37,964 nucleotides of DNA from positions 1-37,964 of the IMG/VR virus record IMGVR_UViG_3300025120_013872. One strand, written 5' to 3'. The DNA comes from a virus. Under the pieces are notes generated by a model. It saw only the letters and a list, made by a program, of their open reading frames with translations, ran no database searches and had not been told where the DNA came from. A program made the translations under genes and the position numbers. Each line of letters starts with the position of its first letter. The stretch's first letter is position 1. Positions 17,340-37,132 of the stretch are shown piece after piece.

Positions 17340-17340
17340 A

Positions 17341-18639: not shown

Positions 18640-18641
18640 AT

Positions 18642-19109: not shown

Positions 19110-19115
19110 AAAAAT

Positions 19116-19742: not shown

Positions 19743-19948
19743 TGGCAGATTTAGAATCATCAATTAAAAAACAAGGTAAATGGGTTACTCAAATTATCCA
19801 TTTTATAGGGGGTGAAAAAAGAACATTTGAAAATATAGATTCTTCTTTAATTAAACAAGGACAATTTACAAAATTATCTACTAAAGATGGTAGGTATATT
19901 TTAATAAATGATAGAAATGTATTATGTATAGAAACATTTAAGCAATGA
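19742..19948 (+). CDS. Small hypothetical protein (68 aa)
   Basis: A 68-residue protein of unknown function. It has a beta-rich pattern, with WVTQIIHFIGGEKRTF followed by FTKLSTKDGRYILINDRNVLCIE, reminiscent of a small barrel or hairpin. No signal peptide or membrane helix is present. Both ends overlap neighbours: the start with the glycosyltransferase stop, and the stop with the next gene's start as ATGA. It is read with the sugar genes, but its role is not apparent. Confidence 0.65.
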   Translation: MADLESSIKKQGKWVTQIIHFIGGEKRTFENIDSSLIKQGQFTKLSTKDGRYILINDRNVLCIETFKQ

Positions 19949-20634
19949 AAGTATTAGTATTAGGTGATGGTTTATTAGGTAGTGAATTAGTTAATAATTA
20001 CAAATGGGATATGGTATCTAGAAAAACTGGAACTTTAGATATAACCTTCTTAGGGCTGAATGAATTAGAATCTACAATAAAACAATATGATGTAATAGTT
20101 AATTGTATATCTAATACTGATAGTTATTCTGAAGATAAACAAAAACACTGGGAAGTTAATTATGAGTTTGTTAAAAATTTAAATAATATTTGTTCTAATA
20201 AAATTAAATTAGTTCAAATCTCAACTGAATTTGTATATGCTCATAATTCTATCCCTCCAACTGAAAAATGTTTACCTTTACCTGATAATACTTGGTATGC
20301 TTATACTAAGTTATTAGCAGATGAATACATTCAAGTTTCAAACTCCAATTATCTTATATGTAGAGTATTACATAAACCTAATTCTGGAATTTATGATTAT
20401 ATTTGGGATCCTATTTTAACTAGTGGAGATAAAGTAAACAAAATAGCAGATCTAATATATAAATTAGTTATAAATAAAGCATGGGGAGTTTATAATGTAG
20501 GAACAGGAGATAAATTATTATCTAGTTTATATCCTAATATACCTACGACTACACCCCCACCTAAAACTCCTAAAGATACTAGGATGGATATAAATAAATT
20601 AAATAAATTTTTAAAACAACATTATGGAAAATAA
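19945..20634 (+). CDS. RmlD-like NAD(P)-dependent sugar reductase
   Basis: A 229-residue short-chain dehydrogenase of the extended kind, closest in layout to dTDP-4-dehydrorhamnose reductase (RmlD). The coenzyme motif is LGDGLLGSEL (residues 6-15), the catalytic Ser/Thr strand is QISTEFVYAH (91-100), and YAYTK (118-122) supplies the Tyr-x3-Lys pair. RmlD reduces a 4-keto sugar as the last step of a deoxysugar. It is shorter than RmlD (about 290) and lacks part of the substrate domain, so the exact substrate is open. It overlaps the DegT-fold gene by 11 bases, which suggests they act on the same nucleotide sugar. Confidence 0.75.
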   Translation: MKVLVLGDGLLGSELVNNYKWDMVSRKTGTLDITFLGLNELESTIKQYDVIVNCISNTDSYSEDKQKHWEVNYEFVKNLNNICSNKIKLVQISTEFVYAHNSIPPTEKCLPLPDNTWYAYTKLLADEYIQVSNSNYLICRVLHKPNSGIYDYIWDPILTSGDKVNKIADLIYKLVINKAWGVYNVGTGDKLLSSLYPNIPTTTPPPKTPKDTRMDINKLNKFLKQHYGK

Positions 20635-21823
20635 AATAAAGAAAAAAGTATGGTACGCTCCTTATAAATTTGAATCTTATGGTGAGGAAGAAATTAAAGC
20701 TGTTGAAGATAGTTTAAGAGCTGGTTGGTTAGCAGGATTTGGTCCTTTATCTATTGAGTTTGAAGAAAAAATAGCTAAATACTTTGGTAAAAAATATGGA
20801 TTATTTGTTAACTCAGGTTCATCAGCTTGTTTATTAGCTTTAGCGTGTTTAGACTTACCAAAGGATTGTAAGGTAATTACTCCTGCTTGTACTTTTTCTA
20901 CTACATTAGCCCCTATAATTCAATTAGGATATAAACCTGTATTTTGTGATGTCAATTTAACATCTTATGTACCTGATGTTAAAGATATTATATCACTTCT
21001 TGAAGATGAAGAAGAAAAAATGTTTAAAGATATAAAGGCAATTATGGTACCAAATTTAATAGGTAATAAACCTAATTGGGCATTACTTAAATCTGAATTA
21101 AAAAGAATAGGAAGAGAAGACATATATGTAATTGAAGACTCAGCTGATACAGTAACTTACACAGAAGAAACTGATATATCAACAACTAGTTTTTATGCTA
21201 GCCATGTTATAACAGCAGGGGGACAAGGAGGAATGGTAATGTTTAATAGTGAAAAACAATTATTAAGAGCTAAATCTTTTAGGGATTGGGGAAGAATGGG
21301 TAATGATTCTGAGATAATAGATGATAGATTTAATCATAAAGTTGATGGAATTCCTTATGACCATAAATTTTTATATAGTGTATTAGGATATAACATGAAA
21401 TGCAGTGAAATGAATGCAGCATTTGGTTTAGTTCAACTTAAAAGATTTGAAAAATTTGAAAGTATAAGAAGAGCTAATATTGAACGTTATTTAGAAAATC
21501 TTAAGGATGTTGAAGAAATAACACTACCAGATGATAGTATTAAACCTAATTGGTTGGCAATTCCACTTCAATATGAACATAGATTAGATTTATTAACATA
21601 TTTAGAAGATCAAAACATTCAGACAAGGGTTACTTTTGCAGGTAATGTAACTCGTCATCCTATTTATAGAGAATATCTTCAAGAATTTAAAAATTCAGAT
21701 TTAATAATGAAAGATGGGTTTTTATTAGGAGCACATCATGGTATGACTATTGAAGATGTAGATTATGTTTGTGAAAAAATAAAAGAATATATTACCTTAA
21801 AAAACCAAGCAAATAGGGTTTAA
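20624..21823 (+). CDS. DegT-fold PLP/PMP enzyme, likely a 3-dehydratase (His replaces catalytic Lys)
   Basis: A 399-residue DegT/DnrJ/EryC1 family protein. Cofactor-binding parts are NSGSSACLLAL (residues 63-73), ITPACTFSTT (85-94) and VIEDSADTV (169-177). The internal aldimine Lys of aminotransferases should lie in SFYxxK. Here SFYASHVIT has His194 (codon 21203-21205). Family members with His at this place, E1/RfbH and ColD, use pyridoxamine phosphate to remove the C-3 hydroxyl of 4-keto-6-deoxy sugars, producing 3,6-dideoxysugars. DHKFLYSVLGYNMK (247-260) also resembles RfbH-type proteins. I read it as a 3-deoxygenating dehydratase, not an aminotransferase. The partner reductase of E1 is not evident here. 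The ColD reaction needs none. Confidence 0.78.
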   Translation: MENKIKKKVWYAPYKFESYGEEEIKAVEDSLRAGWLAGFGPLSIEFEEKIAKYFGKKYGLFVNSGSSACLLALACLDLPKDCKVITPACTFSTTLAPIIQLGYKPVFCDVNLTSYVPDVKDIISLLEDEEEKMFKDIKAIMVPNLIGNKPNWALLKSELKRIGREDIYVIEDSADTVTYTEETDISTTSFYASHVITAGGQGGMVMFNSEKQLLRAKSFRDWGRMGNDSEIIDDRFNHKVDGIPYDHKFLYSVLGYNMKCSEMNAAFGLVQLKRFEKFESIRRANIERYLENLKDVEEITLPDDSIKPNWLAIPLQYEHRLDLLTYLEDQNIQTRVTFAGNVTRHPIYREYLQEFKNSDLIMKDGFLLGAHHGMTIEDVDYVCEKIKEYITLKNQANRV

Positions 21824-21826
21824 AAT

Positions 21827-22807: not shown

Positions 22808-23880
22808 AAACAGCATTAGTATTAGGTGGAGGTGGATTTATTGGAGGTCATCTTGCTAAGAGATTAAAAGAAGATGGGTTTTGGGTAAGAGTTGTTGATA
22901 TTAAAAATAAGCATGAATTTTGGAACCACAAAGATATGTGTGATGATTATGTATGTGGTGATTTAAGAGACCCTTCAATAGTATCTGCTAGCTTTAGAGT
23001 AGAAAGAGACCCTAATCACAAAGATGTAATTTATGGTTATAGTTTACATAAACAACCATTTACTGAAATTGATTCATTTGATGAAGTATATCAATTAGCA
23101 GCTGATATGGGTGGAGCTGGTTATATTTTTACAGGTGAAAATGATGCTAATATAATGCATAACTCAGCATTAGTAAATCTTAATGTAATATTAGAAGCAA
23201 GTATTACTAAAGTAGGTAGAATATTTTACTCATCTTCAGCTTGCATATACCCAGAACATAATCAACTTGATCCTAATAATCCTAATTGTGAAGAAAGTTC
23301 TGCTTACCCTGCAAATCCAGATTCAGAATATGGTTGGGAAAAATTATTTAGCGAAAGATTATTTTTATCTTTTATGAGAAATTATAATTTAAATGTTAAA
23401 GTAGCAAGATTCCATAATATATTTGGCCCTCAAGGAACTTGGGATGGAGGTAAAGAAAAAGCCCCAGCTGCTATGTGTAGAAAAGCAGCATTATCTAAGG
23501 GTGAAATGGAAGTTTGGGGTGATGGATTACAAACAAGATCATTTTTATACATTGATGAGTGTATAGAAGCTATTTTAAAATTTATGAGACAAGATAATTT
23601 TTCTGGTCCTATTAATATTGGTTCTGAAGAAATGGTTACTATAAATGAACTTGCAAATATGGCTATCCGTTGTTCTGGTAAAGATATTAAAGTTAATAAT
23701 ATTGATGGGCAAAAATTTCTGGATAAATATGGATTTCCCTGTCCAATGGGTGTTAGAGGAAGAAATTCTGATAATAAATTATTTAAAGAAAAAATTGGAT
23801 GGGAACCAACACAACCACTTTCTATAGGAATAGAAAAAACTTTTAATTGGATAAAAAAACAAATAAAAACAAATGGATAA
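22804..23880 (+). CDS. GDP-mannose 3,5-epimerase-like enzyme
   Basis: A 358-residue extended SDR strongly resembling plant-type GDP-D-mannose 3,5-epimerase (GME), which makes GDP-L-galactose and GDP-L-gulose. Matching parts are LGGGGFIGGHLAKRL (residues 7-21), LAADMGGAGYIF (98-109) and SSSACIYPEHNQL. YGWEK (176-180) carries the Tyr and Lys. RFHNIFGPQGTWDGGKEKAPAA, MEVWGDGLQTRSF and RGRNSDNKL also match. These are long identical-looking blocks that distinguish GME from other epimerases. A short insertion (GFPCPMG) precedes the RGRNSDN motif. The substrate would be GDP-mannose from the host. It overlaps both neighbours and lies beside a methyltransferase-like gene. Confidence 0.88.
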   Translation: MKTALVLGGGGFIGGHLAKRLKEDGFWVRVVDIKNKHEFWNHKDMCDDYVCGDLRDPSIVSASFRVERDPNHKDVIYGYSLHKQPFTEIDSFDEVYQLAADMGGAGYIFTGENDANIMHNSALVNLNVILEASITKVGRIFYSSSACIYPEHNQLDPNNPNCEESSAYPANPDSEYGWEKLFSERLFLSFMRNYNLNVKVARFHNIFGPQGTWDGGKEKAPAAMCRKAALSKGEMEVWGDGLQTRSFLYIDECIEAILKFMRQDNFSGPINIGSEEMVTINELANMAIRCSGKDIKVNNIDGQKFLDKYGFPCPMGVRGRNSDNKLFKEKIGWEPTQPLSIGIEKTFNWIKKQIKTNG

Positions 23881-24400
23881 AGAAAATCATCCTTTAACTC
23901 GAAAAGAATTATTTAATAAATATAAATTAGATAATAAAATATTTTTTGAAACTGGTACTCATAAAGGAGAATCAGTCCAAACAGCATTAGATTTAGGTTT
24001 TGAAAAAGTAGTAACAGTTGAACTTATTCATAATTTTTTTAATGAATGTGCTTTTAAATTTATAGATAAACCTAATGTAAACTTATTTTATGGTCATTCT
24101 AATGATAAAATGGATGAAATGTTAAATTTAGTAGACTCCCCAGCTTTATTTTGGCTTGATGGTCATGTAGATGGAGTTAATGCTGATTGTTTATGGGATG
24201 AATTAGAACATATAAAAAATCATACTATAAAAACTCATACTATTATAGTAGATGATATTCCTCTATATTTTGGGGATGGTGAAAAGGTAAAGGAAAAAAT
24301 ATTAGAAATAAACCCAGATTATAAATTTGTTATTGAAGATGCCCTTAATGAGGGTAATGGGAAAAATATGGAAAATTGGGATTTAATAGCATATATATAG
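23873..24400 (+). CDS. Class I methyltransferase-like protein
   Basis: A 175-residue protein with a Rossmann-like methyltransferase layout. KIFFETGTHKGESVQTALDLG (residues 22-42) is the SAM-binding Glu-x-Gly-x-x-x-Gly motif. KVVTVELI (45-52) is the acidic end of strand 2, and LFWLDGHVDG (92-101) is a later conserved strand. Small proteins of this type sit in glycan loci, where they may O-methylate sugars, although several are uncharacterised. It overlaps the epimerase gene by 8 bases and ends six bases before an RmlD-like gene. Function as a sugar methyltransferase is inference. Confidence 0.65.
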   Translation: MDKENHPLTRKELFNKYKLDNKIFFETGTHKGESVQTALDLGFEKVVTVELIHNFFNECAFKFIDKPNVNLFYGHSNDKMDEMLNLVDSPALFWLDGHVDGVNADCLWDELEHIKNHTIKTHTIIVDDIPLYFGDGEKVKEKILEINPDYKFVIEDALNEGNGKNMENWDLIAYI

Positions 24401-24406
24401 CAAATA

Positions 24407-25096
24407 ATGAAAATATTTATTACAGGGGGAAGTGGAAATTTAGGAAAGGAATTAAAGAAAGTTATACCAAACACATACCAAATAGTATCACCTACTAGGG
24501 TTGAATGTGATATAGAAAATTTTCAAGAAATTCAAAATGAAATAGCAAAATCAAAACCAGATATTGTATTACATTTAGCAGGTTTTGTTGACATTATAGG
24601 GTGTGAAGGTAATATTACTAAAGCTATAGACACTAACGTAATAGGTACTATAAATGTAGTTAAATCTTGTTTAAATTTAAAGTGTAAATTAGTATATGTT
24701 TCTTCTGAGTATGTTTTTAAAGGAGATAAAGGAAACTATTCAATAAATGATAAATTAAATCCTATAAACATATATGGAAAAACAAAATCAGCATCTGAAC
24801 ATATTATTTCCATTTTACCTAATTACCAAATAATAAGAGCTCCTTTTATTAAAACTAAATATCCTAAAGTCTATACTAACCAATATTGTTCTAGATATTT
24901 TATTGAAGATATAGCAGAAAAAATATTTAATAACATAATAAATAATAAAAATAATATAGTACATATTGCTAATGATAGGAAATCATTATACAACCATTAT
25001 TTAGATAAAAACTTAAATCCACTTCCTATTGAAATACCAGATAATATGAAAAATATAACACCTAAAGACACTAGTTTAATTAATAATAGTATTTAA
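24407..25096 (+). CDS. RmlD-like NAD(P)-dependent sugar reductase (second copy type)
   Basis: A 229-residue extended SDR with coenzyme loop TGGSGNLGKEL (residues 6-16), VSSEYVFKGDKGNY (98-111) as the Ser strand, and YGKTK (123-127) as the Tyr-x3-Lys pair. The layout is like RmlD/4-keto reductases, and the length is below the usual 280-300. It is not a close duplicate of the 19945 gene, as only the framework is shared. It would reduce or epimerise a nucleotide-linked 4-keto sugar. The following gene starts one base after the stop. Substrate unknown. Confidence 0.75.
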   Translation: MKIFITGGSGNLGKELKKVIPNTYQIVSPTRVECDIENFQEIQNEIAKSKPDIVLHLAGFVDIIGCEGNITKAIDTNVIGTINVVKSCLNLKCKLVYVSSEYVFKGDKGNYSINDKLNPINIYGKTKSASEHIISILPNYQIIRAPFIKTKYPKVYTNQYCSRYFIEDIAEKIFNNIINNKNNIVHIANDRKSLYNHYLDKNLNPLPIEIPDNMKNITPKDTSLINNSI

Positions 25097-25097
25097 A

Positions 25098-26042
25098 ATG
25101 AAAAAAAATAAAGTAGCATGTGTAGTATATTATACTGACGATAGATATGATGGTTTAGTTTCTAATGTTAAAAATAGTTTTTTAAAGTTTAATAGTGAAG
25201 AATGTGATTACTATCAAGTAGATTATACAAACCAAGAAGAATATAATAATACATTAGAACATTTTGATTATGCTCCTGAAACATTTTTGATGCAATATAT
25301 TTATGCTTATGAAATTATGAAAAAACATAATTATGAAAAGGTAATTATATTAGGGTCAGATACTATAGTTTGTGGGAGACTAGATGAATTTTTAGATGAT
25401 AATACAACTCCAGTTTTAGCATCTTTAAATTATTGGATTCAAGAATCTACTGAACATTGGTTATCCCCTACAATGCAAGTAAAGTTACCTGATGGGTCAG
25501 AAGAATTAGATCATTTAAACATAAACGCTGATGTTGTCTGTTTTAATAGTAGTGATGCTTTATTAAAAGTTATTACTTTAAGTATGGAACATTATACTCA
25601 TTTTTCAATACAAGGAGGGTTAAATGAATTAGCTCATATGGATAAATCCTATAAGGTAAAAATTGTAGATTCTCCATATCCATTAAGTAAAGTATCTTAT
25701 AATTGTAGATCTAAAGGAGTTCCAAGAACGGATATGATAGAAAAAGGTAACATTAAAAATTGCTATCCTCAAAATGTACATGGGTTAAGTTATAATTATT
25801 TAGTAGAAAGAAATCTATTAGATGGTCAACCTAGTCCTATAAAATCTTGGTATGTTAAGGATAGTAAGTTATACACTCATGACCATAAACAAATAAAGGT
25901 ATTTCATTTTGTAGAGGGATTAGGTGGTAGACCAATTGAAAAATTTAATGAATTAATTAATGATTTTAAAACAAATTGGTTTAATGAAGAAACATATAAG
26001 TTCTTTAAAGAACAATGTAATTGTAATCAATTTTTTAATTAA
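25098..26042 (+). CDS. GT-A-like putative glycosyltransferase (GT8-like)
   Basis: A 314-residue protein that starts with a GT-A style strand, KVACVVYYTDDRYDGL (residues 5-20). It continues to YEKVIILGSDTIVCGRLDEFL (79-99), where a metal-binding Asp sits, then LNINADVVCFNS (145-156) and a late FHFVEGLGG near the substrate loop. This order is like GT8 and other retaining GT-A transferases. The C-terminus is Cys-rich (EQCNCNQFF). No membrane segment. Donor and acceptor unknown; a non-enzymatic GT-A-fold protein cannot be excluded. Confidence 0.6.
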   Translation: MKKNKVACVVYYTDDRYDGLVSNVKNSFLKFNSEECDYYQVDYTNQEEYNNTLEHFDYAPETFLMQYIYAYEIMKKHNYEKVIILGSDTIVCGRLDEFLDDNTTPVLASLNYWIQESTEHWLSPTMQVKLPDGSEELDHLNINADVVCFNSSDALLKVITLSMEHYTHFSIQGGLNELAHMDKSYKVKIVDSPYPLSKVSYNCRSKGVPRTDMIEKGNIKNCYPQNVHGLSYNYLVERNLLDGQPSPIKSWYVKDSKLYTHDHKQIKVFHFVEGLGGRPIEKFNELINDFKTNWFNEETYKFFKEQCNCNQFFN

Positions 26043-26057
26043 AAATAAAACTAAGTT

Positions 26058-27974
26058 ATGACAAAAATAATAAACAAACCCTGGGGGAAAGAAGAATGGC
26101 TAGAATTAAATGAAAAATATTGTTATAAAAGAATTTATATCAATAAAGGTTATAAAACAAGTTATCAATATCATAATTATAAAAGAGAAACTAATTATTT
26201 AATTGAAGGCACAGCAGAGATATGGTTAGAAAATGATGATGGGGTTGTTGAAAAAAAAATAATGAAAGCTGGAGAATTTTTTAATGTAACACCTCCTAAA
26301 AAACATAGAGTAATAGCCTTAACTGATATTATTTTACAAGAAGTTTCAACCCCTGAAGTAAATGATGTTATTAGAATTGAAGATGATACTAATAGAAAAG
26401 ATGGGTTTATTGAAGGTGAACATAAACAACCAGCTGTATTGTTATTAGCAGCTGGAAAAGGAGAACGTTTAGGAGATTTAACTACTAACATAAATAAAGC
26501 TTTATTACCTATTAATAATAAAGCTATTATATCTTCAATTATTAATAAATTTCCTGATAATTATGAGATAGTTGTAGCATTAGGTTATAAAGGAGATATT
26601 GTAAAGGAATATTGTGAATTAGCACACCCTAATAGAAAATTTATATTTGTGAATGTAGATGATATAAATTCAACTAATTCAGGACCAGGATATTCAGCTC
26701 TTAAATGTAAAGAATATTTAAACCGTCCTTTTTATTTAGCTGTTGCTGATTGTATTATTGATTCAGAATTACCTCCACAAGATGGTAATTGGTTAGGTGT
26801 TTACCCTACTTCGTATCCTGAAAAATACTCTACAGTAAAATCAGATACAAAAGGAAATATTTTAGATTTTGCTAATAAAAACCATAAGGGATTTAATGAT
26901 GCTTTTATTGGGTTAGCTTCTATTTTAGAATATGATATATTTTGGAGTGAATTAGAAAATAATATGCAAAATGGAGAAATAGTATCAGCATTTTCAAATC
27001 CTTCTAAATATTCTAATTTTTCAATTAAAAGGTCAGAATGGTTAGATACAGGAACTTTAGATGATTTAAATAGAACTAAAAATTATTTTAATGATAATCC
27101 TCTTTCTTTACATAAAGAAACTAGTGAAATAACTTATAAAGAAGATAAATTTATTAAATTCCACCCTAATTTAGATAATATTTTAAATAAATCTAAAAGA
27201 GCAGAAATTTTAAATGGTTTAATCCCATCAGATTTTGCTAGTACTAATAATTTTATTAGTTATAATTGGGAAGAAGGTTTAACTTTATACACTTATAATG
27301 ATATTGATTTATATAGAAAATTCTTATCAGTATTAGATTCTAATATTACAAAATCAAAAACATGGGTGGGTAATAAAGAATTATATAAATCTTTTTACAT
27401 CACAAAAACAGAAAACAGAAAAAATAAATTTATAGATAGGTTTGGGAAAAAATATTATACTAAAAAGTATAATGTAAATGGAAACAATTATGATTCATTA
27501 GAAAATATATTATTAGGTATTAATTTAAAAAATTTATTTAATAATCCAATGTATAATTTATTTCATGGAGATTTACAATTTGATAATATTATCTATAATA
27601 AAAAAAATGACTCATTTAAATATATAGATTGGAGAGAATCCTTTGGAGGTAGTACTGAAGGGGGAGATATTTATTATGATTTAGCAAAATTGTATGGGGG
27701 TTGTATTATACCTTATAATTTAGCAAAAAATGATGATTTTATTAGATATACTGAGGGTGTAGCAATAATTGATTATGGTTTTAATGTTCCTGATGAATTA
27801 TCTCAATTTAAAAATGAGTATGAAAAATGGTTAATTAATAAAGGATATGATTTAAATCGTATTAAATTAATGACAGCTATTATATTTTTAAATATGTCAC
27901 CTTTACATAGTACAAACTTTTCAAAAATGTTATGGTTTAAATCTATAGAAATGTTATCTAATGTTAATAGATAA
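26058..27974 (+). CDS. Three-domain protein: cupin, sugar/polyol-phosphate nucleotidyltransferase, APH/LicA-like kinase
   Basis: A 638-residue fusion. Residues 1-110 are a cupin (SYQYHNYKRETNYLIEG with His39 and Glu44, then PPKKHRV with His83), as in the isomerase end of mannose-phosphate enzymes. Residues 125-345 are a nucleotidyltransferase: LLAAGKGERLG (129-139), KALLPI with Lys147, and AVADC with Asp231. Residues 355-638 are a kinase of the aminoglycoside/choline type: LFHGDLQFDN (501-510, catalytic Asp505) and YIDWRE (522-527), then DIYYDLAKLY. The natural reading is isomerise or bind, phosphorylate, then activate with CTP or another NTP to an NDP-linked compound. LicA/LicC-type choline activation is a possible parallel. 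It overlaps the AroE-like gene by 14 bases. Confidence 0.75.
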   Translation: MTKIINKPWGKEEWLELNEKYCYKRIYINKGYKTSYQYHNYKRETNYLIEGTAEIWLENDDGVVEKKIMKAGEFFNVTPPKKHRVIALTDIILQEVSTPEVNDVIRIEDDTNRKDGFIEGEHKQPAVLLLAAGKGERLGDLTTNINKALLPINNKAIISSIINKFPDNYEIVVALGYKGDIVKEYCELAHPNRKFIFVNVDDINSTNSGPGYSALKCKEYLNRPFYLAVADCIIDSELPPQDGNWLGVYPTSYPEKYSTVKSDTKGNILDFANKNHKGFNDAFIGLASILEYDIFWSELENNMQNGEIVSAFSNPSKYSNFSIKRSEWLDTGTLDDLNRTKNYFNDNPLSLHKETSEITYKEDKFIKFHPNLDNILNKSKRAEILNGLIPSDFASTNNFISYNWEEGLTLYTYNDIDLYRKFLSVLDSNITKSKTWVGNKELYKSFYITKTENRKNKFIDRFGKKYYTKKYNVNGNNYDSLENILLGINLKNLFNNPMYNLFHGDLQFDNIIYNKKNDSFKYIDWRESFGGSTEGGDIYYDLAKLYGGCIIPYNLAKNDDFIRYTEGVAIIDYGFNVPDELSQFKNEYEKWLINKGYDLNRIKLMTAIIFLNMSPLHSTNFSKMLWFKSIEMLSNVNR

Positions 27975-28587
27975 AAACACCCAAATATATTGTTCATTTT
28001 CCTCAAATCCAGGAAATAATGGTTGTAAATTTTTTAATAATTCATTTCAATCTCAAAATATAAACGCTATATACAAATCCTTTTATTCTGATAATATTGA
28101 AAATTCAATTAAAGCTGTTAAATCTTTGGATATTAAAGGATTTGCTGTTAGTATGCCTTTTAAAGTAGAAGTACTTAATTATGTCGATAAATTATCAAAA
28201 GAAGTTAAATATATAGGTGCAGCTAATACTATTCTTAATAATAATGGGAATTTAAAAGCATACAATACTGACTGGGTAGGTGCTTATAAATACCTAAATA
28301 AATATAAAAAAGATAGATTAGACTATATAAATATTTTAGGAAATGGAGGGTTTAGTAAAGCGGTACAATATGCTTGTAATCTATTAGAAATTAGTTTTAA
28401 TATTATAGAAAGAGATCAATGGAGTTTGGTTCCCCAATTAAAAGGCATTATATTTAATTGTACTCCTGTTGAGATTTATACTACTGGAATGTTAATAGAT
28501 GGTAGACCATCTACAACTAGTGGTAAAAAAATAGCTTTACTACAGGCAGAAGAACAATTAAAAATTTATACTAATGCTATACCCTAA
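27961..28587 (+). CDS. Shikimate dehydrogenase-like (AroE fold) protein
   Basis: A 208-residue protein of the shikimate/quinate dehydrogenase fold. The substrate half has SFSSNPGNNGCKFFNN (residues 12-27), GFAVSMPFK (60-68, with catalytic Lys68), IGAANTILNNNG (85-96) and YNTDWVGAYKYL (101-112, with Asp104). The nucleotide half has the shortened loop ILGNGGFS (125-132) and NCTP (166-169). AroE enzymes use the Lys-Asp pair to reduce a 3-keto group on a cyclic polyol. The protein is shorter than AroE (about 270), mainly in the coenzyme domain. Placed in a sugar-activation operon, it more likely acts on a cyclitol or keto-acid intermediate than on aromatic amino-acid synthesis, but the substrate is unknown. 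Confidence 0.75.
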   Translation: MLIDKNTQIYCSFSSNPGNNGCKFFNNSFQSQNINAIYKSFYSDNIENSIKAVKSLDIKGFAVSMPFKVEVLNYVDKLSKEVKYIGAANTILNNNGNLKAYNTDWVGAYKYLNKYKKDRLDYINILGNGGFSKAVQYACNLLEISFNIIERDQWSLVPQLKGIIFNCTPVEIYTTGMLIDGRPSTTSGKKIALLQAEEQLKIYTNAIP

Positions 28588-29518
28588 AATTTATATAGGT
28601 CCTATGTCTAAAAATGTAGTAAATGCTATTACTGAGTTTTGTGATGAAACAGGTAATAAAGTAGGATTAATACCTTCAAGACGACAAGTTGAACATAATG
28701 GGGGTTATGTTAATAAATGGACAACTAAAAACTTCAGTAAATATACTAATAAATTAGTTTTAAAACGAGACCATTCTGGTCCTGGTCAAGGTTATAAAGA
28801 TGATGATGGATATACTTCATTAAAAGAAGATTGCAATTTCTTTAATTTAATTCATATTGATCCCTGGAAAAAATACCCTAAATATAAAGATGGGTTAAAA
28901 TGGACTATAAATATGATAGAATTTTGTTATAATATTAACCAAGACATTGAGTTTGAAATAGGTACTGAAGAATCTATTCGCAAGTTTAGTAGTGATGAAT
29001 TATATAAATTAGTTAAAGATTTAGCATTTAATTTGCACCCCCAAGTATTTAATAAAATTAAATATTTAGTTATACAATCAGGTACTTCATTAAAAGGAAA
29101 TAGTAATACAGGGTCTTATGATAAAGATAGACTTTTATCTATGTTGTCTGTTGCCAAAAAATGGAATCTTTTATCAAAGGAACATAATGGAGATTATATT
29201 CCTTCAAATCTAATTAAAGAAAAAATGAAATTAGGATTAGATTCAATAAATATAGCCCCAGAGTTTGGGTTAATAGAAACTCTTTCTTACATAGACGAAG
29301 GTATTGATATTAATAAATTTTGGGAAATATGTTATAATTCTAAAAGATGGGAAAAATGGGTTGATAAAGATTTTGATCCCATAAAACAAAAATTAGATCT
29401 AATTAAAATATGTGGTCATTATGTTTTTTCATCTAAAAAATTTAAAAAAATAAAACCTAATATTGATAATATTATTAAATTAAATATAAAAAATAAATTA
29501 AATGAGTTATTTAAATAA
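28574..29518 (+). CDS. KbaZ/GatZ-like TIM-barrel protein
   Basis: A 314-residue protein that looks like the non-catalytic tagatose-bisphosphate aldolase subunit family (KbaZ/GatZ). It has IGPMSKNVVNAITEFC at the start, GLIPSRRQVEHNGGYV (residues 31-46) and LVLKRDHSGPGQGY (61-74, with an Arg-Asp-His substrate strand). EFEIGTEESIR (129-139), LVIQSGTSLKG and LDSINIAPEFGLIET follow in barrel order. Known members pair with or resemble aldolases. Variants in surface-polysaccharide loci have unknown substrates. It overlaps the AroE-like gene by 14 bases and the HAD gene by 17 bases, so the three are tightly coupled. The name by family is uncertain. Confidence 0.62.
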   Translation: MLYPKIYIGPMSKNVVNAITEFCDETGNKVGLIPSRRQVEHNGGYVNKWTTKNFSKYTNKLVLKRDHSGPGQGYKDDDGYTSLKEDCNFFNLIHIDPWKKYPKYKDGLKWTINMIEFCYNINQDIEFEIGTEESIRKFSSDELYKLVKDLAFNLHPQVFNKIKYLVIQSGTSLKGNSNTGSYDKDRLLSMLSVAKKWNLLSKEHNGDYIPSNLIKEKMKLGLDSINIAPEFGLIETLSYIDEGIDINKFWEICYNSKRWEKWVDKDFDPIKQKLDLIKICGHYVFSSKKFKKIKPNIDNIIKLNIKNKLNELFK

Positions 29519-29873
29519 TAGACCTAAAACTATTATATGTGATATAGATGGAACTTTAGTAAAACATATATCACCTTTAGAAACTACTAAACCCGGTTTT
29601 AAGATGCAATTATTACCTGGTACTCTTGAAAAATTAGCAGAATGGGATGTAAAGGGGTATAATATAATTTTAATGTCTGGTAGAAGAGAAGGGGCAAGGA
29701 AGGAAACTGAAAAACAATTATCTGAAGTTGGGATAATATATGATAAACTAATTTTAGGAGTAGGAGGAGGAATTCGTGTTTTACTTAATGATAAAAAACC
29801 AGATGGAACTACAGAAACAGCTTTATCTTATAATTTAACAAGAAATAAGGGGATTAGGCATTTAGAACTATGA
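29502..29873 (+). CDS. HAD-superfamily phosphatase
   Basis: A 123-residue HAD hydrolase. Motif I is TIICDIDGTLV (residues 10-20, Asp14 nucleophile and Asp16), motif II is ILMSGRREGA (56-65, Ser59) and the late acidic motif is LLNDKKPDG (94-102, Asp97). The small cap is minimal, as in sugar-phosphate and polynucleotide 3'-phosphatase-like HADs. In this operon, removing a phosphate from a sugar or polyol before activation is a sensible role, but the substrate cannot be read. Its stop overlaps the next start (ATGA). Confidence 0.8.
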   Translation: MSYLNNRPKTIICDIDGTLVKHISPLETTKPGFKMQLLPGTLEKLAEWDVKGYNIILMSGRREGARKETEKQLSEVGIIYDKLILGVGGGIRVLLNDKKPDGTTETALSYNLTRNKGIRHLEL

Positions 29874-31564
29874 AAAATAAATTTAAAATAATAATTCCAT
29901 CATTTAATAATGAAGATTGGGTAGAATATAATATAGCTAGTATACTTAATCAAAATTATAGTAACTATGAAGTATTGTATATCAATGATAAATCTACTGA
30001 TAATACATTTAATAAAGTAAAAGATATAATAGATGGGTTAGATAATTGGACTGTTATTAATAATAAAGAAAATAAAGGAGCACAATATAATTATTTTGAA
30101 CATTTAAATACTTTTCTTACAGATGATAAAGACATATTAATACATTTAGATGGTGATGATTGGTTATATGATGATAATGTATTAGATAATTTAAATAAAT
30201 TTTATTGTGAAAAGGATTGTTGGATGACTTATGGGGGGTTTGTATGTTGGGATGGTAGTAAAGATGTAAAACTCCCAAACCCACAATCAACCCCATACCC
30301 AGAATTTATTCATAAGTACAAAATGTATAGAAAAGATGTTTGGAGAGCATCTCATTTACGTACTTTTAGAAGTTTTTTAATTAAATCTGTAAAAAATAGT
30401 GATTTAAAATCTAACATAGATGGAAAATATTATTGGCATGCTGCTGATTTAGCCCACCAATTCCCCTGTTTAGAAATGTGCCCTAAAGATAAAATAGGAG
30501 TTGTTGATTTTTATACACACTGTTATAATGCTTCACAACAAAATAGCATAAGAACTCGAGAAAGGGAAGACAGCAATAATCAAAAATATGAAGAGGAAAT
30601 AAGGAATAAAAAAATATATAAGGAAGGACTTAAAGGAGAAAAATTACCTCAAGTTAATATATTTGGTTCTCCCTCAGGTGGAGAATTATGTTCAATACCT
30701 ACAGAATTTAGTTATTGTTATAATGTGTATAAAGGAGAATATGATTTAGTATTATTAAATGATATGGATATAGAAAAATATTTAGATGGAGAATATCAAA
30801 TAGGTAATAATGTACCTGTTGTAGCCAGATTATTAGAACAAAGAGACTATTTTCAGGGTAAATTAATGAATAAAGTAAAGGAAAATTATCATAAATTTCA
30901 TACTATTTTAACTTTTGATAAAATTTTATTAGATACACTACCTAATGCACGATTTTGTAACGCTGAAGGAATAACAGCATTTTCAGTTTTCCCTAATGCT
31001 ATGAATATTCCTTCTTACTATCCTAAAATAGCAGGTGAATTTAATGTTAGTAAAACCATACAAATGTTTCCTAAAAATAATTTTAATAGAGCTATATGCA
31101 TTACATCAGCAAAAGCATTTTTACCAGGACATAATGTTAGGTTAAATTTTGTTAAAAATTCTAAAGATAAAATTGATTTATTTGGAAAAGGAATTAAAGA
31201 AGTAGAAAGTAAATTAGATGTATTACATAATTATGCTTTTAGTTTAGCTATTGAAAATAACATATCTAAAGATGATTATTATTTTACTGAAAAACTTATA
31301 GAATGTATAATTACAGGAACTATACCTATTTACTATGGTTGTCCCAATATTGATAAATTTTTTGATATAAAGGGAATTCTTACTTTTAATACACAAAAAG
31401 AATTAGATAATATATTAGATAACTTAAATGAAGAAAAATATAATTCGATGTTAAAATATGCTAAAGCTAATTATGATAAAGCAATAAAAGAATTTGTATT
31501 GGACAATGATTCTTTATACAAATTACACTTAAAAAATATAATTAAAGATGGTACTACTATTTAA
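29870..31564 (+). CDS. Two-domain glycosyltransferase: GT2 plus GT10 (fucosyltransferase)-like
   Basis: A 564-residue protein. Residues 1-210 are a GT2 domain: FKIIIPSFNNEDWVEYNIAS (4-23), EVLYINDKSTDNT (34-46) and LIHLDGDDWLYDD (86-98, DxD motif). About residues 400-564 resemble GT10 alpha-1,3-fucosyltransferases: YAFSLAIENNISKDDYYFTEK (457-477) and LIECIITGTIPIYYGCPN (478-495), the family's acceptor and donor core. One enzyme would add two sugars in sequence. GT10 uses GDP-fucose-type donors, in line with the GDP-sugar enzymes nearby. The middle (210-400) is not recognised. Confidence 0.78.
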   Translation: MKNKFKIIIPSFNNEDWVEYNIASILNQNYSNYEVLYINDKSTDNTFNKVKDIIDGLDNWTVINNKENKGAQYNYFEHLNTFLTDDKDILIHLDGDDWLYDDNVLDNLNKFYCEKDCWMTYGGFVCWDGSKDVKLPNPQSTPYPEFIHKYKMYRKDVWRASHLRTFRSFLIKSVKNSDLKSNIDGKYYWHAADLAHQFPCLEMCPKDKIGVVDFYTHCYNASQQNSIRTREREDSNNQKYEEEIRNKKIYKEGLKGEKLPQVNIFGSPSGGELCSIPTEFSYCYNVYKGEYDLVLLNDMDIEKYLDGEYQIGNNVPVVARLLEQRDYFQGKLMNKVKENYHKFHTILTFDKILLDTLPNARFCNAEGITAFSVFPNAMNIPSYYPKIAGEFNVSKTIQMFPKNNFNRAICITSAKAFLPGHNVRLNFVKNSKDKIDLFGKGIKEVESKLDVLHNYAFSLAIENNISKDDYYFTEKLIECIITGTIPIYYGCPNIDKFFDIKGILTFNTQKELDNILDNLNEEKYNSMLKYAKANYDKAIKEFVLDNDSLYKLHLKNIIKDGTTI

Positions 31565-32696
31565 TGTTTTCCTTACAGTTTCTAAGGCAAACCAAAATGT
31601 AATTTATGATAGAGGTAATTTACCTAATAATAGTAAATTAGATATTACTAAATATAGTTTAGCTAGTTTAGCGAAAGCTTACCCCTGGTCAAAAGCTATA
31701 ATAAATATAGAATTAGATTCTAACTGTTATAGCGAAGAAGATAATAAAAATGTTTATGATTTTATTACTAAGGAATTTAAAGATATTGAATTTGTATACT
31801 CATCTAAAAGATGTGAACTACAAAAAGAATGGCAAGCTTTATATAATGTAATAAATAGTGATTTAATATTTTATTTAGGAAATCATGATCATATATTTAT
31901 AGATTCTGATAATTCCTATTTAAAAGATTTAGTAAAAATAGCTAAAAAATATAAAAATTCAACTATAGTAACATCCCACTTCCCAGAAAATATAAGATGG
32001 GCTAAAAGTGGATATATAGAATTAAATGAAACAACTCCAAGAAAACTTAATAATGGTTATAAAATTAATGATAATTATTTATCTTATGAAGGAATTTGTA
32101 TAGATAGTTTAAATATAATTACAAAATCCTTATATTATGATTGGTTTTTTACAGGTAATTGGGGAGATGAAGTAAAATTACCTAGAACTGATGGTATAGG
32201 AGGCATAGATTTACTTAAAATAAGAAATTATTTGGGTGTTAATTTACCCCCACAAAAAATAATTATACCTTATAAAGAACAATTAAGACATTTTGATGGG
32301 TATATGCATCAAAGAATAACAAATGATACTTGTCCTTCTTTAACTGTACCTGATGGATTCTTTGAAAATAAAATAAAGGTAAGATATGGTTATAACGATT
32401 ATAAAAAAGGATGGGTAAATATAAATCCTCAAAATCAAAATTATTATGCCTCAGATAAAAATGGGGTAGATGATAAGATAACCTTAGATGATTTACCTTT
32501 GTTTTGGAAAGAAAAAATAATTGATATTGATATAAATTCAAATATAAATGAAGAAGAAATGATACAATATAAATTACAGTCTAGACTACAAATGGTATAT
32601 TCTGATGAACGTTATAACCCTTATGTAGATGACGAAATACAACAAAAAGTACTTGATACTTATTTATTAACCCACAAACAATACAAATTAGCATGA
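31548..32696 (+). CDS. Putative glycosyltransferase, GT-A-like
   Basis: A 382-residue protein of uncertain family. LIFYLGNHDHIFIDSDNSYL (residues 105-124) looks like a GT-A metal/donor strand with an Asp-His-Asp pattern in place of DxD. Trp-rich acceptor-like elements follow (YDWFFTGNWGDEVKLPRTDG, 198-217). The early strands NVFLTVSKANQNVIYDRG fit a Rossmann start. There is no signal peptide or membrane helix. It lies between the GT2-GT10 fusion and the RmlB-like gene, overlapping both. I give it as glycosyltransferase because of fold hints and context; a hypothetical label is the safe alternative. Confidence 0.5.
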   Translation: MVLLFNVFLTVSKANQNVIYDRGNLPNNSKLDITKYSLASLAKAYPWSKAIINIELDSNCYSEEDNKNVYDFITKEFKDIEFVYSSKRCELQKEWQALYNVINSDLIFYLGNHDHIFIDSDNSYLKDLVKIAKKYKNSTIVTSHFPENIRWAKSGYIELNETTPRKLNNGYKINDNYLSYEGICIDSLNIITKSLYYDWFFTGNWGDEVKLPRTDGIGGIDLLKIRNYLGVNLPPQKIIIPYKEQLRHFDGYMHQRITNDTCPSLTVPDGFFENKIKVRYGYNDYKKGWVNINPQNQNYYASDKNGVDDKITLDDLPLFWKEKIIDIDINSNINEEEMIQYKLQSRLQMVYSDERYNPYVDDEIQQKVLDTYLLTHKQYKLA

Positions 32697-33652
32697 TAAA
32701 AACAGTATATATAACCGGATGTTTAGGATTTATAGGATCCTATGTTACTCGTACTTGCCTAGAAAAAGGTTGGTATGTTAAAGGAGTAGACAAAATGACC
32801 TATGCTTCTAATATTGACTTATTAGAAGAATTTAAATTATATCCAAATTTTTCATTTATAAAATGTGATATAAATGATTTAGAATTTTTGTATGAATGTG
32901 ATTATATTATTAACACAGCAGCTGAAACACACGTTGGTAATAGTATAGTTAAAAGTGATGACTTTGTTCATTCTAATATCAATGGTGTACATCATTTACT
33001 TGAATTATTAAGAAATTATAGAGGAGAAGGTAAAAATATTCCAACATTATTACATTTTAGTACTGATGAAGTATATGGAGATGTAACTGAAGGTGAACAT
33101 TTAGAAACTGATATCTTAAAACCTAGTAATCCTTACTCAGCTACAAAAGCAGCAGCAGACCAATTAATTTTAGCATGGGCTAGAACTTATGATTTACCTT
33201 TTATTATAGTAAGACCTACTAATAATTATGGGGTAGGACAATATACTGAAAAACTAATACCAAAAGCAATAAAATATTTAGGTTTAGGTAAAAAAATTCC
33301 ATTACATAATGATGGTACTCCTATTAGAAATTGGTTACATGCACAAGATACAGCTGATGCTGTTGTTACCCTTGTAGAATCAAAAGTTAAAAATGAAATA
33401 TATAATATAGCTGGGGGGTTTGAACAAACTAATTTGGATACTACAAATAAGGTTATTACATTATGTCATCCTAAAGAAGAATTATCTAATTATAATTCTT
33501 ATTATGATTTTTCATATTCACGACGAGGTCAAGATGTTAGATATGCCTTAAATGATAATAAATTAAGAAATTTAGGATGGAGTTCTAGAAAGGTATTTGA
33601 TAATGAGTTACCTGAAATAGTAGAATATTATAAAGAAAATTTTATATGGTAG
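32693..33652 (+). CDS. rmlB: dTDP-glucose 4,6-dehydratase-like (RmlB)
   Basis: A 319-residue extended SDR of the RmlB type. The coenzyme loop is ITGCLGFIGSY (residues 7-17) and NTAAETHVGNSI (74-85) is the family's substrate strand. HFSTDEVYG (121-129) contains the dehydratase Thr-Asp-Glu triad (124-126), YSATK (148-152) the Tyr-x3-Lys pair, and PTNNYGVGQYTEKLIP the terminal signature. RmlB removes water from dTDP-glucose (or a related NDP-sugar), producing the 4-keto-6-deoxy intermediate used by downstream epimerases, dehydratases and reductases. The other RmlA/C genes are not in the window; the His-variant DegT enzyme and RmlD-like enzymes could use this product. Specificity for dTDP versus GDP or CDP is open. 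Confidence 0.85.
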   Translation: MIKTVYITGCLGFIGSYVTRTCLEKGWYVKGVDKMTYASNIDLLEEFKLYPNFSFIKCDINDLEFLYECDYIINTAAETHVGNSIVKSDDFVHSNINGVHHLLELLRNYRGEGKNIPTLLHFSTDEVYGDVTEGEHLETDILKPSNPYSATKAAADQLILAWARTYDLPFIIVRPTNNYGVGQYTEKLIPKAIKYLGLGKKIPLHNDGTPIRNWLHAQDTADAVVTLVESKVKNEIYNIAGGFEQTNLDTTNKVITLCHPKEELSNYNSYYDFSYSRRGQDVRYALNDNKLRNLGWSSRKVFDNELPEIVEYYKENFIW

Positions 33653-34257
33653 ATTTAAAAAAAAGAATATTAGAAATAGCTTACAAACACAAATTAGGCC
33701 ACTTAGGATCTTATCTATCAGCAGCTGGGATTATAGATGAAATATATAAAAATAAGGACCCAAATGATATATTTATACTATCCTCAGGACATGCTGCTTT
33801 AGCGTTGTATGCAGCTTTAGAAAAATATGAAGGTAAAAATGCAGAAGAATTATTTATAAAACATGGAGGTCATCCCCATAGAGATGAAGAAAATGGAATA
33901 TATTGTTCTACTGGTAGTTTAGGATTAGGAATAACAGTAGCTGTGGGTAGAGCTTTAGCAAATAAAAACAGAAAAGTCCATGTTTTAATTAGTGATGGTG
34001 AATCAGCTGAAGGATCAGTTTGGGAGGCTTTAAGATTTATTAAAGAAAGTAATTTATCAAACATAGAAGTTTATGTTAATGTAAATGGTTATGCTGCTTA
34101 TGATAAAGTAGATATAAAATATTTAGTTGATAGACTTAAAATATTTTTACCTACAATTAATATTAAATATACTAGTGTAAACCAATATCCATTTTTAAGA
34201 GGATTAAATGCACACTATCATATAATGTCAGAAAAAGATTATAAATCAACACTATGA
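33646..34257 (+). CDS. Transketolase, TPP-binding (N-terminal) subunit
   Basis: A 203-residue subunit covering the pyrophosphate-binding half of transketolase. HKLGHLGSYLSAAGII (residues 15-30), FILSSGHAALALYA (44-57), HGGHPHRDEENG (73-84) and the TPP motif ISDGESAEGSVWEAL (114-128) are in family order. Asp116 supplies the magnesium ligand, and NVNGYAAY is the TPP loop continuation. With the next gene it would form a split enzyme like those in antibiotic and glycan loci. Standard transketolase moves a two-carbon unit between sugars. The third, C-terminal domain is missing from both. It starts within the rmlB end and stops within the next start (ATGA). Confidence 0.85.
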   Translation: MVDLKKRILEIAYKHKLGHLGSYLSAAGIIDEIYKNKDPNDIFILSSGHAALALYAALEKYEGKNAEELFIKHGGHPHRDEENGIYCSTGSLGLGITVAVGRALANKNRKVHVLISDGESAEGSVWEALRFIKESNLSNIEVYVNVNGYAAYDKVDIKYLVDRLKIFLPTINIKYTSVNQYPFLRGLNAHYHIMSEKDYKSTL

Positions 34258-34724
34258 GAAAAGAATTTGCAGAATTTTTACACGGCGAAATGTCGTATAA
34301 TGAAAAAATAATTTTAATAACAGGTGATCTAGGATATGGTTTATGGGATAGAATAAAAATAGACTATTCAGATAGATTTTATAATGTAATGTCTTCAGAA
34401 CAACTTATGGTTGGTACAGCAGTAGGCTTAGCTATGGAAGGATTTATACCATTAGTATATTCAATTACACCTTTTGTACTTTATAGACCATTTGAATTAC
34501 TTAGAAATTATTTAGACCATGAACATATTCCTGTTAAATTAATAGGTGGAGGTAGAGATAAAGACTATGGTTATTTAGGATTCTCCCATTGGGCTGAAGA
34601 AGATATAAAAGTGTTATCTACATTAAATAATATCCAATTATATAAACCAAAAAACCCAACAAATAAATTATATAAAGAATTTCTATATAATAAGAAACCA
34701 AGTTATTTAAATTTAAAACGATAA
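34254..34724 (+). CDS. Transketolase, pyrimidine-binding (C-terminal) subunit
   Basis: A 156-residue partner for the preceding gene. ILITGDLGYGLWDRI (residues 20-34), FYNVMSSEQLMVGTAVGLAMEG (42-63, with the catalytic Glu of the 'E-Q' motif) and LVYSITPFVLYRPFELLRN (67-85) match the pyrimidine domain. VKLIGGGRDKDYGYLGFSHWAEEDI (94-118) also matches. It ends there, without the third domain. The two chains overlap at ATGA, so a 1:1 complex is expected. Two-chain transketolases or related DXPS-type enzymes are known; which ketose it serves is unknown. Confidence 0.83.
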   Translation: MRKEFAEFLHGEMSYNEKIILITGDLGYGLWDRIKIDYSDRFYNVMSSEQLMVGTAVGLAMEGFIPLVYSITPFVLYRPFELLRNYLDHEHIPVKLIGGGRDKDYGYLGFSHWAEEDIKVLSTLNNIQLYKPKNPTNKLYKEFLYNKKPSYLNLKR

Positions 34725-35506
34725 TGAATATATTAATAACAGGGGGTAATGGTTATATTGCTAAGTCATTAAGTAAAGGATTATGGAAGGGATCAAATAG
34801 ATATAATATTACTTCTATAACAAGAAATGATTTTGATTTATCTAATAGAGAAGCTACTAACAAATGGTTTGAAGGAAAACATTTTGATGTAATAATACAC
34901 ACAGCAGTAGTAGGAGGTAGTAGATTTAAAAAAGATGATGCTGATACTTTATATCAAAACCTTCAAATGTTTTTTAACTTATATAATAACAAATACTGTT
35001 TTAGTAAGTTAATTCATTTTGGTTCAGGAGCTGAATTAGGTGTACCTAGTGATCCTTATGGTTTAAGTAAAAAAGTTATTAGTAGAATAATAGATGCTGA
35101 ACCTTATTTTTATAATATAAGAATATATGGAGTTTTTGATGAAAATGAGTTAGATACAAGATTTATTAAGGGTAACATTAAACGTTATATTAATAAAGAA
35201 CCTATAAAAATACATCAATCTAAATTAATGGATTTATTTTATATGGGTGATTTAATTAAATTAGTAAAACATTATATAAATGAAAAACATCTATCTAAAA
35301 ATATAGATTGTAGTTATAAAAAAAGTTATTCTTTGTTAGATATAGCTAACATAATTAATAATTTATCTACTCATAAAGTAGAAATAGATTTTAAAGATAA
35401 TAAAGCTAAAAATTATATAGGTACTACTACAGCAGATTTAAAATGGATTGGTTTAGAACAAGGTATAAAAAATACATATGAAAAATTATTAGATGAAGCA
35501 AATTAG
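34724..35506 (+). CDS. NAD(P)-dependent sugar epimerase/reductase, extended SDR (WcaG-like)
   Basis: A 260-residue extended SDR. It has coenzyme loop ITGGNGYIAKSL (residues 5-16), VIIHTAVVGG (56-65), IHFGSGAELG (97-106) and YGLSK (112-116) as the catalytic Tyr-x3-Lys. The layout is near GDP-L-fucose synthase / epimerase-reductases of the WcaG sort, though short at the C-terminus. It would act on a keto-sugar nucleotide from the same cluster. It is the last sugar-nucleotide enzyme before the final transferase. Substrate unknown. Confidence 0.72.
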   Translation: MNILITGGNGYIAKSLSKGLWKGSNRYNITSITRNDFDLSNREATNKWFEGKHFDVIIHTAVVGGSRFKKDDADTLYQNLQMFFNLYNNKYCFSKLIHFGSGAELGVPSDPYGLSKKVISRIIDAEPYFYNIRIYGVFDENELDTRFIKGNIKRYINKEPIKIHQSKLMDLFYMGDLIKLVKHYINEKHLSKNIDCSYKKSYSLLDIANIINNLSTHKVEIDFKDNKAKNYIGTTTADLKWIGLEQGIKNTYEKLLDEAN

Positions 35507-36811: not shown

Positions 36812-37132
36812 ATGAAAGAAGAAACTGCAAAGAGAAAGATAACAAGTATTGAAATAAGTTATAGTAATAAAAGGGAGCTAAAAGAATTATCTAATAAAGA
36901 AGAATTTCGTGGTATTATAATGAGAGATTCTTTTAGGGCTATTAAAGATGCTATTAAAAATAATTATACTACAATAGAGTTATTTAATATAATAAATCTA
37001 TCTATAATAATTAAATTATCATCTTTATATTTCCCAACAGCATTAAAAAGGATAAGTAATTATTTTGAAGAAAATGAAGAATATGAGAAATGTGCTGAAA
37101 TTAAACAACTAATTAATAAAATAAAACAATGA
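36812..37132 (+). CDS. Hypothetical protein, UVR-like C-terminus
   Basis: A 106-residue basic, helical protein with unknown role. The C-terminal FPTALKRISNYFEENEEYEK and following CAEIKQLINKIK resemble the short helical UVR motif of UvrB/UvrC-type proteins, used there for protein pairing. The first half is Lys/Arg/Glu-rich (SNKRELKELSNKEEFRGII). The gap before it (36777-36811) is only 35 bases and shows no clear promoter. It overlaps the next gene through ATGA. Function unassigned. Confidence 0.6.
   Translation: MKEETAKRKITSIEISYSNKRELKELSNKEEFRGIIMRDSFRAIKDAIKNNYTTIELFNIINLSIIIKLSSLYFPTALKRISNYFEENEEYEKCAEIKQLINKIKQ

Follow-up and report, generated by a model that had tools for sequence, protein, structure and literature searches.

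A phage glycan cluster with two probably independent nucleotide-sugar modules, an AroE-like/KbaZ-like cassette and a module with a miniature split transketolase

Results

The DNA analysed here, IMG/VR virus record IMGVR_UViG_3300025120_013872, is a partial sequence of a bacteria-infecting virus (phage), and its full length of 37,964 bases is referred to as the window. From about 15,909 to 36,776 the window consists of consecutive glycosyltransferase and sugar-nucleotide enzyme genes, out of which a preliminary description had picked an AroE-like, a KbaZ-like, a HAD, a two-chain transketolase and a kinase/nucleotidyltransferase gene as parts of one new pathway. We found all of these genes where the description had placed them, on the same strand and with adjacent reading frames, most of which share between a few and 17 bases (Table 1). 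The description had left out two probable glycosyltransferases, an RmlB-like gene, a DegT gene and a reductase of the short-chain dehydrogenase/reductase (SDR) family. With these genes included, the best explanation, to which we give a probability of about 0.62 as a whole, is that the region represents a phage glycan cluster with two independent nucleotide-sugar modules and not one pathway. Module 1 (26058-29873) comprises a fused cupin-nucleotidyltransferase-kinase and the AroE-like, KbaZ-like and HAD proteins, while the two short transketolase chains (TktN and TktC, hereafter the short pair) fall outside it and have neighbours of their own, namely the RmlB-like, DegT and reductase genes of module 2.

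Table 1. Genes of the two modules and the intervening glycosyltransferases (window coordinates)
Position	Strand	Predicted product	Module	Basis
26058..27974	+	Fused cupin (residues 1-118), sugar-1-phosphate-type nucleotidyltransferase (about 125-345) and APH-type small-molecule kinase (about 350-638)	1	Domain/profile matches, fold, relatives
27961..28587	+	Compact AroE/SdhL-like NADP-dependent oxidoreductase, 208 aa	1	K68, N89, D104, Q199 invariant
28574..29518	+	Metal-dependent TIM barrel of GatZ/KbaZ type, predicted to epimerise ketose phosphates at C4	1	D66/H67/E132/H204 = GatZ D87/H88/E171/H257
29502..29873	+	Small cap-less HAD phosphatase	1	DxDGT motif, D14/D16 invariant
29870..31564	+	Probable glycosyltransferase, GT2 fused to C-terminal GT10 (fucosyltransferase-type) domain
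31548..32696	+	Probable glycosyltransferase, candidate user of module 1 product		No family match
20624..21823	+	DegT/E1-type sugar 3-dehydratase	2	His194 for PLP lysine; without Fe-S cysteines of E1
32693..33652	+	RmlB-like NDP-hexose 4,6-dehydratase	2	TDExYG and YxxxK kept
33646..34257	+	TktN, ThDP-binding chain of miniature split transketolase	2	D117, N147 invariant
34254..34724	+	TktC, pyrimidine-binding chain	2	Glu49 of catalytic type invariant; transketolase C-terminal domain absent
34724..35506	+	SDR reductase, predicted to reduce branch ketone	2	Y112/K116 kept
Abbreviations: aa, amino acids; APH, aminoglycoside phosphotransferase; PLP, pyridoxal phosphate; NDP, nucleoside diphosphate; ThDP, thiamine diphosphate.

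For comparison, about 230 loci were collected in four viral-contig scans and one genome scan and annotated by profiles made from the proteins of the window and a small number of neighbours, whereby loci of one contig were merged. The first map contained 110 distinct viral contigs picked through AroE and KbaZ. Since this sample had been chosen by these two genes, a second one was drawn through TktC alone and held the 80 nearest relatives on 65 distinct contigs; contigs are fragments and the second sample is confined to nearest relatives, so that absolute frequencies are rough. Searches of identified phage records and plasmids yielded almost no relatives.

The genes of module 1 were found to be tightly linked. 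In the first map, nucleotidyltransferase-kinase genes lay near the KbaZ-like gene in 91/91 KbaZ contigs, and an AroE-like gene was present in 43/43 phage contigs bearing the fused cupin-nucleotidyltransferase-kinase. Among the 57 contigs combining an AroE-like gene with a nucleotidyltransferase-kinase, 49 contained a KbaZ-like gene and nine a GmhA-like isomerase together with a second transketolase pair; one had both, so that 57/57 were covered. The joint occurrence of cupin-nucleotidyltransferase-kinase, AroE-like, KbaZ-like and HAD is a conserved cassette, far beyond chance. To this extent the co-occurrence of five families proposed in the preliminary description holds, whereas a part in it for the fifth member, the transketolase pair, is not supported.

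The cassette exists in three types. Type A, that of the window, has the fused protein, AroE-like, KbaZ-like and HAD. In type B, cupin and kinase are split and accompanied by KbaZ-like, HAD and often a C-methyltransferase, with AroE-like mostly absent, and type C contains HAD, cupin, kinase, a GmhA-like isomerase (TIGR00441, E=1e-27; structure 5i01, E=3e-18), full-length TktN/TktC and AroE-like, with KbaZ-like mostly absent. The grouping of a two-chain transketolase with the AroE-like gene in the preliminary description thus holds for nine type C phages, in which the full-length pair immediately precedes AroE-like, but not for the short pair of the window. The replacement of KbaZ-like by GmhA-like and transketolase in type C suggests that kinase, HAD and nucleotidyltransferase form a common activation unit into which different ketose phosphates are fed. 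As a separate observation, a sugar C-methyltransferase-like gene, which implies a keto intermediate, was present in many cassettes (L002, L004, L023, L028, L029, L037 and others), often between KbaZ-like and HAD. Type A was also found in an apparent polysaccharide cluster of a Flavobacteriaceae metagenome-assembled genome (L021), and when the fused protein was sought in 397 genomes of the same family, it was detected in this genome only. In 21 phage contigs, the gene directly after HAD was a relative of the probable glycosyltransferase at 31548-32696. Taken together, the product of module 1 looks like an NDP-activated sugar or polyol, for which aldose, polyol and cyclitol all remain candidates.

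The identity of the AroE-like protein, including the Lys68/Asp104 pair pointed out earlier, was borne out by a match to PF08501 (E=4e-16), by HI0607 as best solved structure (E=2e-41, profile) and by K68, D104, N89 and Q199, which were invariant in 56/56 relatives. With 137.8 bits the protein scored below the PRK12550 equivalog cut-off (306 bits). Its profile match list also included 5-ketofructose reductase, an acyclic-sugar reductase of the AroE family (PMC7954740), and in some E. coli sdhL is located just upstream of an L-sorbose operon (PMC12817954). A role as housekeeping shikimate dehydrogenase is disfavoured, because the closest group is SdhL and the L021 genome, the one cellular genome checked, contains a second, separate AroE.

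The KbaZ-like window protein itself gave no Pfam match, PF08013 included, but distant homologs with about 30% identity do pass PF08013, and the profile of its family aligns with E. coli GatZ. Its AlphaFold model (predicted local distance difference test, pLDDT, 96.9) retrieved the GatZ-type structures 3txv and 2fiq as best PDB fold matches, and together these results confirm its assignment as KbaZ-like. The GatZ metal ligands His88/Glu171/His257 and the base Asp87 align to H67/E132/H204/D66, and equivalents of D66, H67 and H204 were found in 162/162 relatives, that of E132 in 160/162. GatZ and KbaZ had long been regarded as chaperones of aldolases but are now reported to be ketose-6-phosphate C4 epimerases that convert fructose-6-phosphate to tagatose-6-phosphate, with metal ligands and base predicted (PMC11907403), and on the basis of residues and model we predict that the window protein is likewise a ketose-phosphate C4 epimerase. 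Two Firmicute relatives lie directly after genes that resemble, by eye, those of fructose-type phosphotransferase systems, which fits a one-step ketose-phosphate conversion. A non-catalytic aldolase subunit is disfavoured, since epimerase activity has been published and no KbaY-like gene was seen among the window proteins scanned. Separately, KbaZ-like genes that are 53-67% identical occur alone, with no cassette neighbours, in marine Bacteroidota chromosomes (L010-L020, L022, L024, L026).

In the fused protein, the nucleotidyltransferase domain has the fold of the hexose-1-phosphate nucleotidyltransferases RmlA, GalU and MurU and weak profile matches to HddC (E=2e-6) and to an inositol-phosphate cytidylyltransferase model (E=1e-3). 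The kinase domain is APH-like, with APH matched in 14/20 relatives; its sequence gave no useful match to solved structures.

The sample drawn through TktC gave a different picture for the short pair. TktN was present in 65/65 phage contigs, the SDR reductase in 63/65 (no more than two genes downstream of TktC in 61/65), RmlB-like in 58/65 and DegT in 57/65, while AroE-like was found in 3/65, KbaZ-like in 4/65 and YerE in 0/65. A Fisher test for association between the transketolase pair and the AroE/KbaZ cassette gave p=0.18. The near-universal presence of RmlB, DegT and reductase genes and the rarity of AroE and KbaZ indicate that the short pair is separate from the AroE/KbaZ cassette, and the RmlB-like gene, the His-type DegT, the reductase and the intervening glycosyltransferases of the window lead us to assign the pair to another module. 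An RmlB-like gene preceded the short pair in 10 contigs of the first map, and the pair was also found beside cassettes without AroE-like (L164, L172). In 8 other contigs of this map we found a YerE-like full-length ThDP enzyme, located in 6 of them right after the homologous RmlB-like gene, with DegT also matching, and no contig had both the short pair and YerE (chance of no overlap, P=0.022). Judged from these genes, module 2 is probably yersiniose-like, with the transketolase in the slot of YerE, the unrelated enzyme by which the branch is normally made. Of the contigs with a YerE-like gene, L007 (16717-19449) carries a gene for a PanB-like ketopantoate hydroxymethyltransferase after it; this enzyme might be the source of a hydroxylated 2-keto acid donor, and some YerE-like enzymes (ErwE) favour such donors (PMC12247030).

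DegT matched best to E1, the CDP-4-keto-6-deoxyglucose 3-dehydrase (3bcx, 4e-55), and has His194 at the position of the PLP lysine. This His was found in 17/17 loci with TktNC- or YerE-type modules and in 68/68 scorable proteins of the TktC sample; several DegT relatives retain the E1 Fe-S cysteines, and one scored above the RfbH cut-off. The ThDP/metal residues and the catalytic-type Glu (D117 and N147 of TktN, E49 of TktC, and H112) were invariant in 80/80 pairs. Both chains are short, TktN with 203 aa in the window and 201-248 aa in 79/80 relatives, and TktC with 156 aa, comprising PF02779 only, and 155-176 aa in 79/80 relatives; the transketolase C-terminal domain PF02780 was absent from TktC. 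For both, the best solved match was to the Carboxydothermus transketolase, which is likewise split into two chains (6yak/6yaj).

The left part of the window carries a split T4-type DNA polymerase, a clamp loader, GroEL and queuosine-type genes. The polymerase (phrog_262) occupies two overlapping reading frames, 6030-7709 and 7706-8635, with the break near residue 566 of the profile for this family, and a GroEL-like chaperonin is encoded at 10594-12234 (phrog_5725, E=7e-151). QueC-like (1382-2167), QueE-like (3133-3906) and GTP cyclohydrolase (4822-5502) genes suggest 7-deazaguanine DNA modification in this phage. At the other end, a reading frame at 37129-37962 that runs off the window resembles, by eye, a Bacteroidota Omp28/thioredoxin-like secreted protein, a possible hint to the host.

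Discussion

The analysis shows which genes are present, how they are conserved, how residues and folds match and how modules are linked and exchanged, and from this we infer reactions, substrates and products for both modules. In module 1, the KbaZ-like protein would epimerise a ketose phosphate at C4 (for example fructose-6-phosphate to tagatose-6-phosphate) by metal-dependent retro-aldol/aldol chemistry, the AroE-like protein with NADP would reduce, or oxidise, a carbonyl of the C4-epimerised sugar, and the original phosphate would be taken off by HAD. The kinase would then phosphorylate a site usable by the nucleotidyltransferase, and the resulting NDP-activated rare sugar or polyol would be used by a glycosyltransferase of the cluster, most likely that at 31548-32696. 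For the cupin, a role as sugar isomerase is possible. For module 2, a set of 4,6-dehydratase and 3-dehydratase is expected from the yersiniose pathway to yield an NDP-4-keto-3,6-dideoxyhexose, and here the RmlB-like protein would 4,6-dehydrate an NDP-hexose and DegT (His194) would 3-deoxygenate it to this intermediate. A ketose phosphate would donate a two-carbon ketol unit, which the mini-transketolase would transfer onto C4 of this intermediate, in the way YerE acts with pyruvate on CDP-3,6-dideoxy-4-keto-glucose (PMC12247030), and a ketose phosphate donor would leave a hydroxyacetyl branch to be reduced by the SDR at 34724.

We considered whether all of these genes could still serve a single pathway, with transketolase, KbaZ-like, AroE-like and HAD jointly making a branched sugar, cyclitol or polyol of a new kind and the fused protein activating it. 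The genes are adjacent and co-directional in the window, the short pair occurs in 8/58 AroE+kinase contigs, and nine type C contigs have another, full-length transketolase pair plus a GmhA-like isomerase directly before AroE. However, the independent TktC-drawn sample, in which RmlB, DegT and reductase genes and not AroE or KbaZ accompany the short pair, led us to reject this reading, and with the pair also occurring next to AroE-less cassettes and being exchanged for YerE, it is largely refuted and in our view very improbable. The short pair might instead supply a small ketose or aldehyde, or act as another ThDP enzyme on a separate substrate, without any C-branching. In favour of this are the missing C-terminal domain of TktC and the fact that branching by transketolases is so far only a proposal, made for two antibiotics (PMC12247030); yet the gene slot and flanking genes are the same as those of YerE, a reductase follows closely in nearly all contigs and the ThDP residues are all conserved, which makes a non-branching role doubtful, if still a serious contender.

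As to the product of module 1, a cyclitol would arise if the KbaZ-like protein catalysed an intramolecular aldol closure and the AroE-like protein reduced the ring ketone like shikimate dehydrogenase. The former has the fold and the metal site of a class II aldolase type, the latter retains the catalytic Lys/Asp/Asn/Gln, and the nucleotidyltransferase weakly matches the inositol-phosphate model, all of which is compatible with this route, but GatZ/KbaZ relatives with data are ketose-phosphate epimerases (PMC11907403), a reductase of acyclic sugars belongs to the AroE family, the nucleotidyltransferase has the fold of hexose-1-phosphate enzymes and type B cassettes do without AroE, so that we regard a carbocycle as improbable. 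An ordinary NDP-hexose or NDP-heptose made by GmhA/HddA/GmhB/HddC-like logic, with the AroE-like protein setting one stereocentre by oxidation-reduction, would account for the kinase, phosphatase and nucleotidyltransferase chassis common to all three cassette types, the GmhA-like isomerase of type C and a GmhB-like HAD in one cellular relative (L037). This is nevertheless an unlikely outcome, though one with a real chance, as no GmhA-like gene was found among the window proteins scanned, the kinase is APH-type and not GHMP-type like HddA, and the HddC match is weak.

Several observations weigh against the two-module scheme as we have drawn it. Equivalents of GatZ K279/E44 are absent from the KbaZ-like protein (N226 and I33 in the profile alignment), and its substrate may therefore differ from that of GatZ. 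In the cupin, one His of the type II phosphomannose isomerase metal motif is apparently lost (by eye), which makes isomerase activity uncertain. The role of the AroE-like protein is the weakest step, given that it is absent from type B cassettes and, in type C, occurs where KbaZ-like is missing. As for module 2, the E1 Fe-S cysteines are missing from the DegT of the window and no E3 reductase was identified, TktC without its C-terminal domain might run a different ThDP reaction, and the mutual exclusion of short pair and YerE (P=0.022) is on its own only modest statistics.

Transketolase branching of ketosugars has been proposed for miharamycin and amipurimycin in a 2025 review (PMC12247030), beyond which our literature search found no published lipopolysaccharide transketolase C-branching and no KbaZ/AroE nucleotide-sugar pathway. 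We tentatively suggest, at somewhat less than even odds, that the window encodes an undescribed phage route to a C-branched deoxysugar by a mini two-chain transketolase and an undescribed AroE-family cassette leading from a C4-epimerised ketose phosphate to an NDP-activated rare sugar or polyol. If so, module 2 would represent a natural transketolase whose action on a nucleotide sugar yields a tertiary alcohol, which is a reaction wanted in biocatalysis, and module 1 would give AroE-like and KbaZ-like proteins a function other than in the shikimate pathway or in the catabolism of tagatose. Module 1 also shows that environmental phages swap entire modules for sugar nucleotides, whose purpose is presumably the decoration of virions, of DNA or of the host surface.

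Among known systems, the aminoshikimate clusters for rifamycin-type 3-amino-5-hydroxybenzoate (AHBA) share recurring split transketolase, AroE-like, HAD and kinase families with the window, and the preliminary description had drawn this comparison. It had also noted the absence of 3-deoxy-D-arabino-heptulosonate 7-phosphate (DAHP) synthase and dehydroquinate synthase, and indeed neither of them nor AHBA synthase was found among the 20 proteins scanned at 15909-35506. With these synthases missing and a DegT that is closest to E1 3-dehydrase and carries His for the PLP lysine, as 3-dehydratases do, we rejected an aminoshikimate reading. Module 1 resembles the AmgK-MurU and heptose (GmhA-HddA-GmhB-HddC) routes in its kinase and nucleotidyltransferase (plus phosphatase) logic, with an APH kinase and a MurU-like nucleotidyltransferase, but has a single fused protein with a cupin and another sugar-phosphate source. 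Its KbaZ-like protein shares the TIM-barrel fold, metal ligands and catalytic Asp with the C4 epimerases E. coli GatZ and Sinorhizobium 3txv, from which it differs in identity (about 13%, structure alignment), in its shorter length (314 aa), in lacking K279/E44 and in lying in a nucleotide-sugar cassette instead of a catabolic setting. Compared with the SdhL/HI0607 branch, the AroE-like protein keeps the catalytic Lys, Asp, Asn and Gln and the NADP-type Arg and aligns closely over the first 140 residues, whereas its nucleotide domain is shortened (208 aa versus about 271) and its context is that of sugar nucleotides. In module 2, the short pair has two chains and conserved ThDP residues like the Carboxydothermus transketolase, but measures 203+156 aa versus 309+341 aa, lacks the C-terminal domain and is linked to sugar-nucleotide genes. 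Finally, the yersiniose-type pathway (4,6-dehydratase, E1, YerE, reductase) has its counterparts in the 4,6-dehydratase, the His-type 3-dehydratase, a ThDP C-C ligase and the reductase of module 2, and phage relatives carry this set with a YerE-like enzyme; the window, in contrast, has a mini-transketolase in place of YerE, which predicts a ketol donor and not pyruvate.

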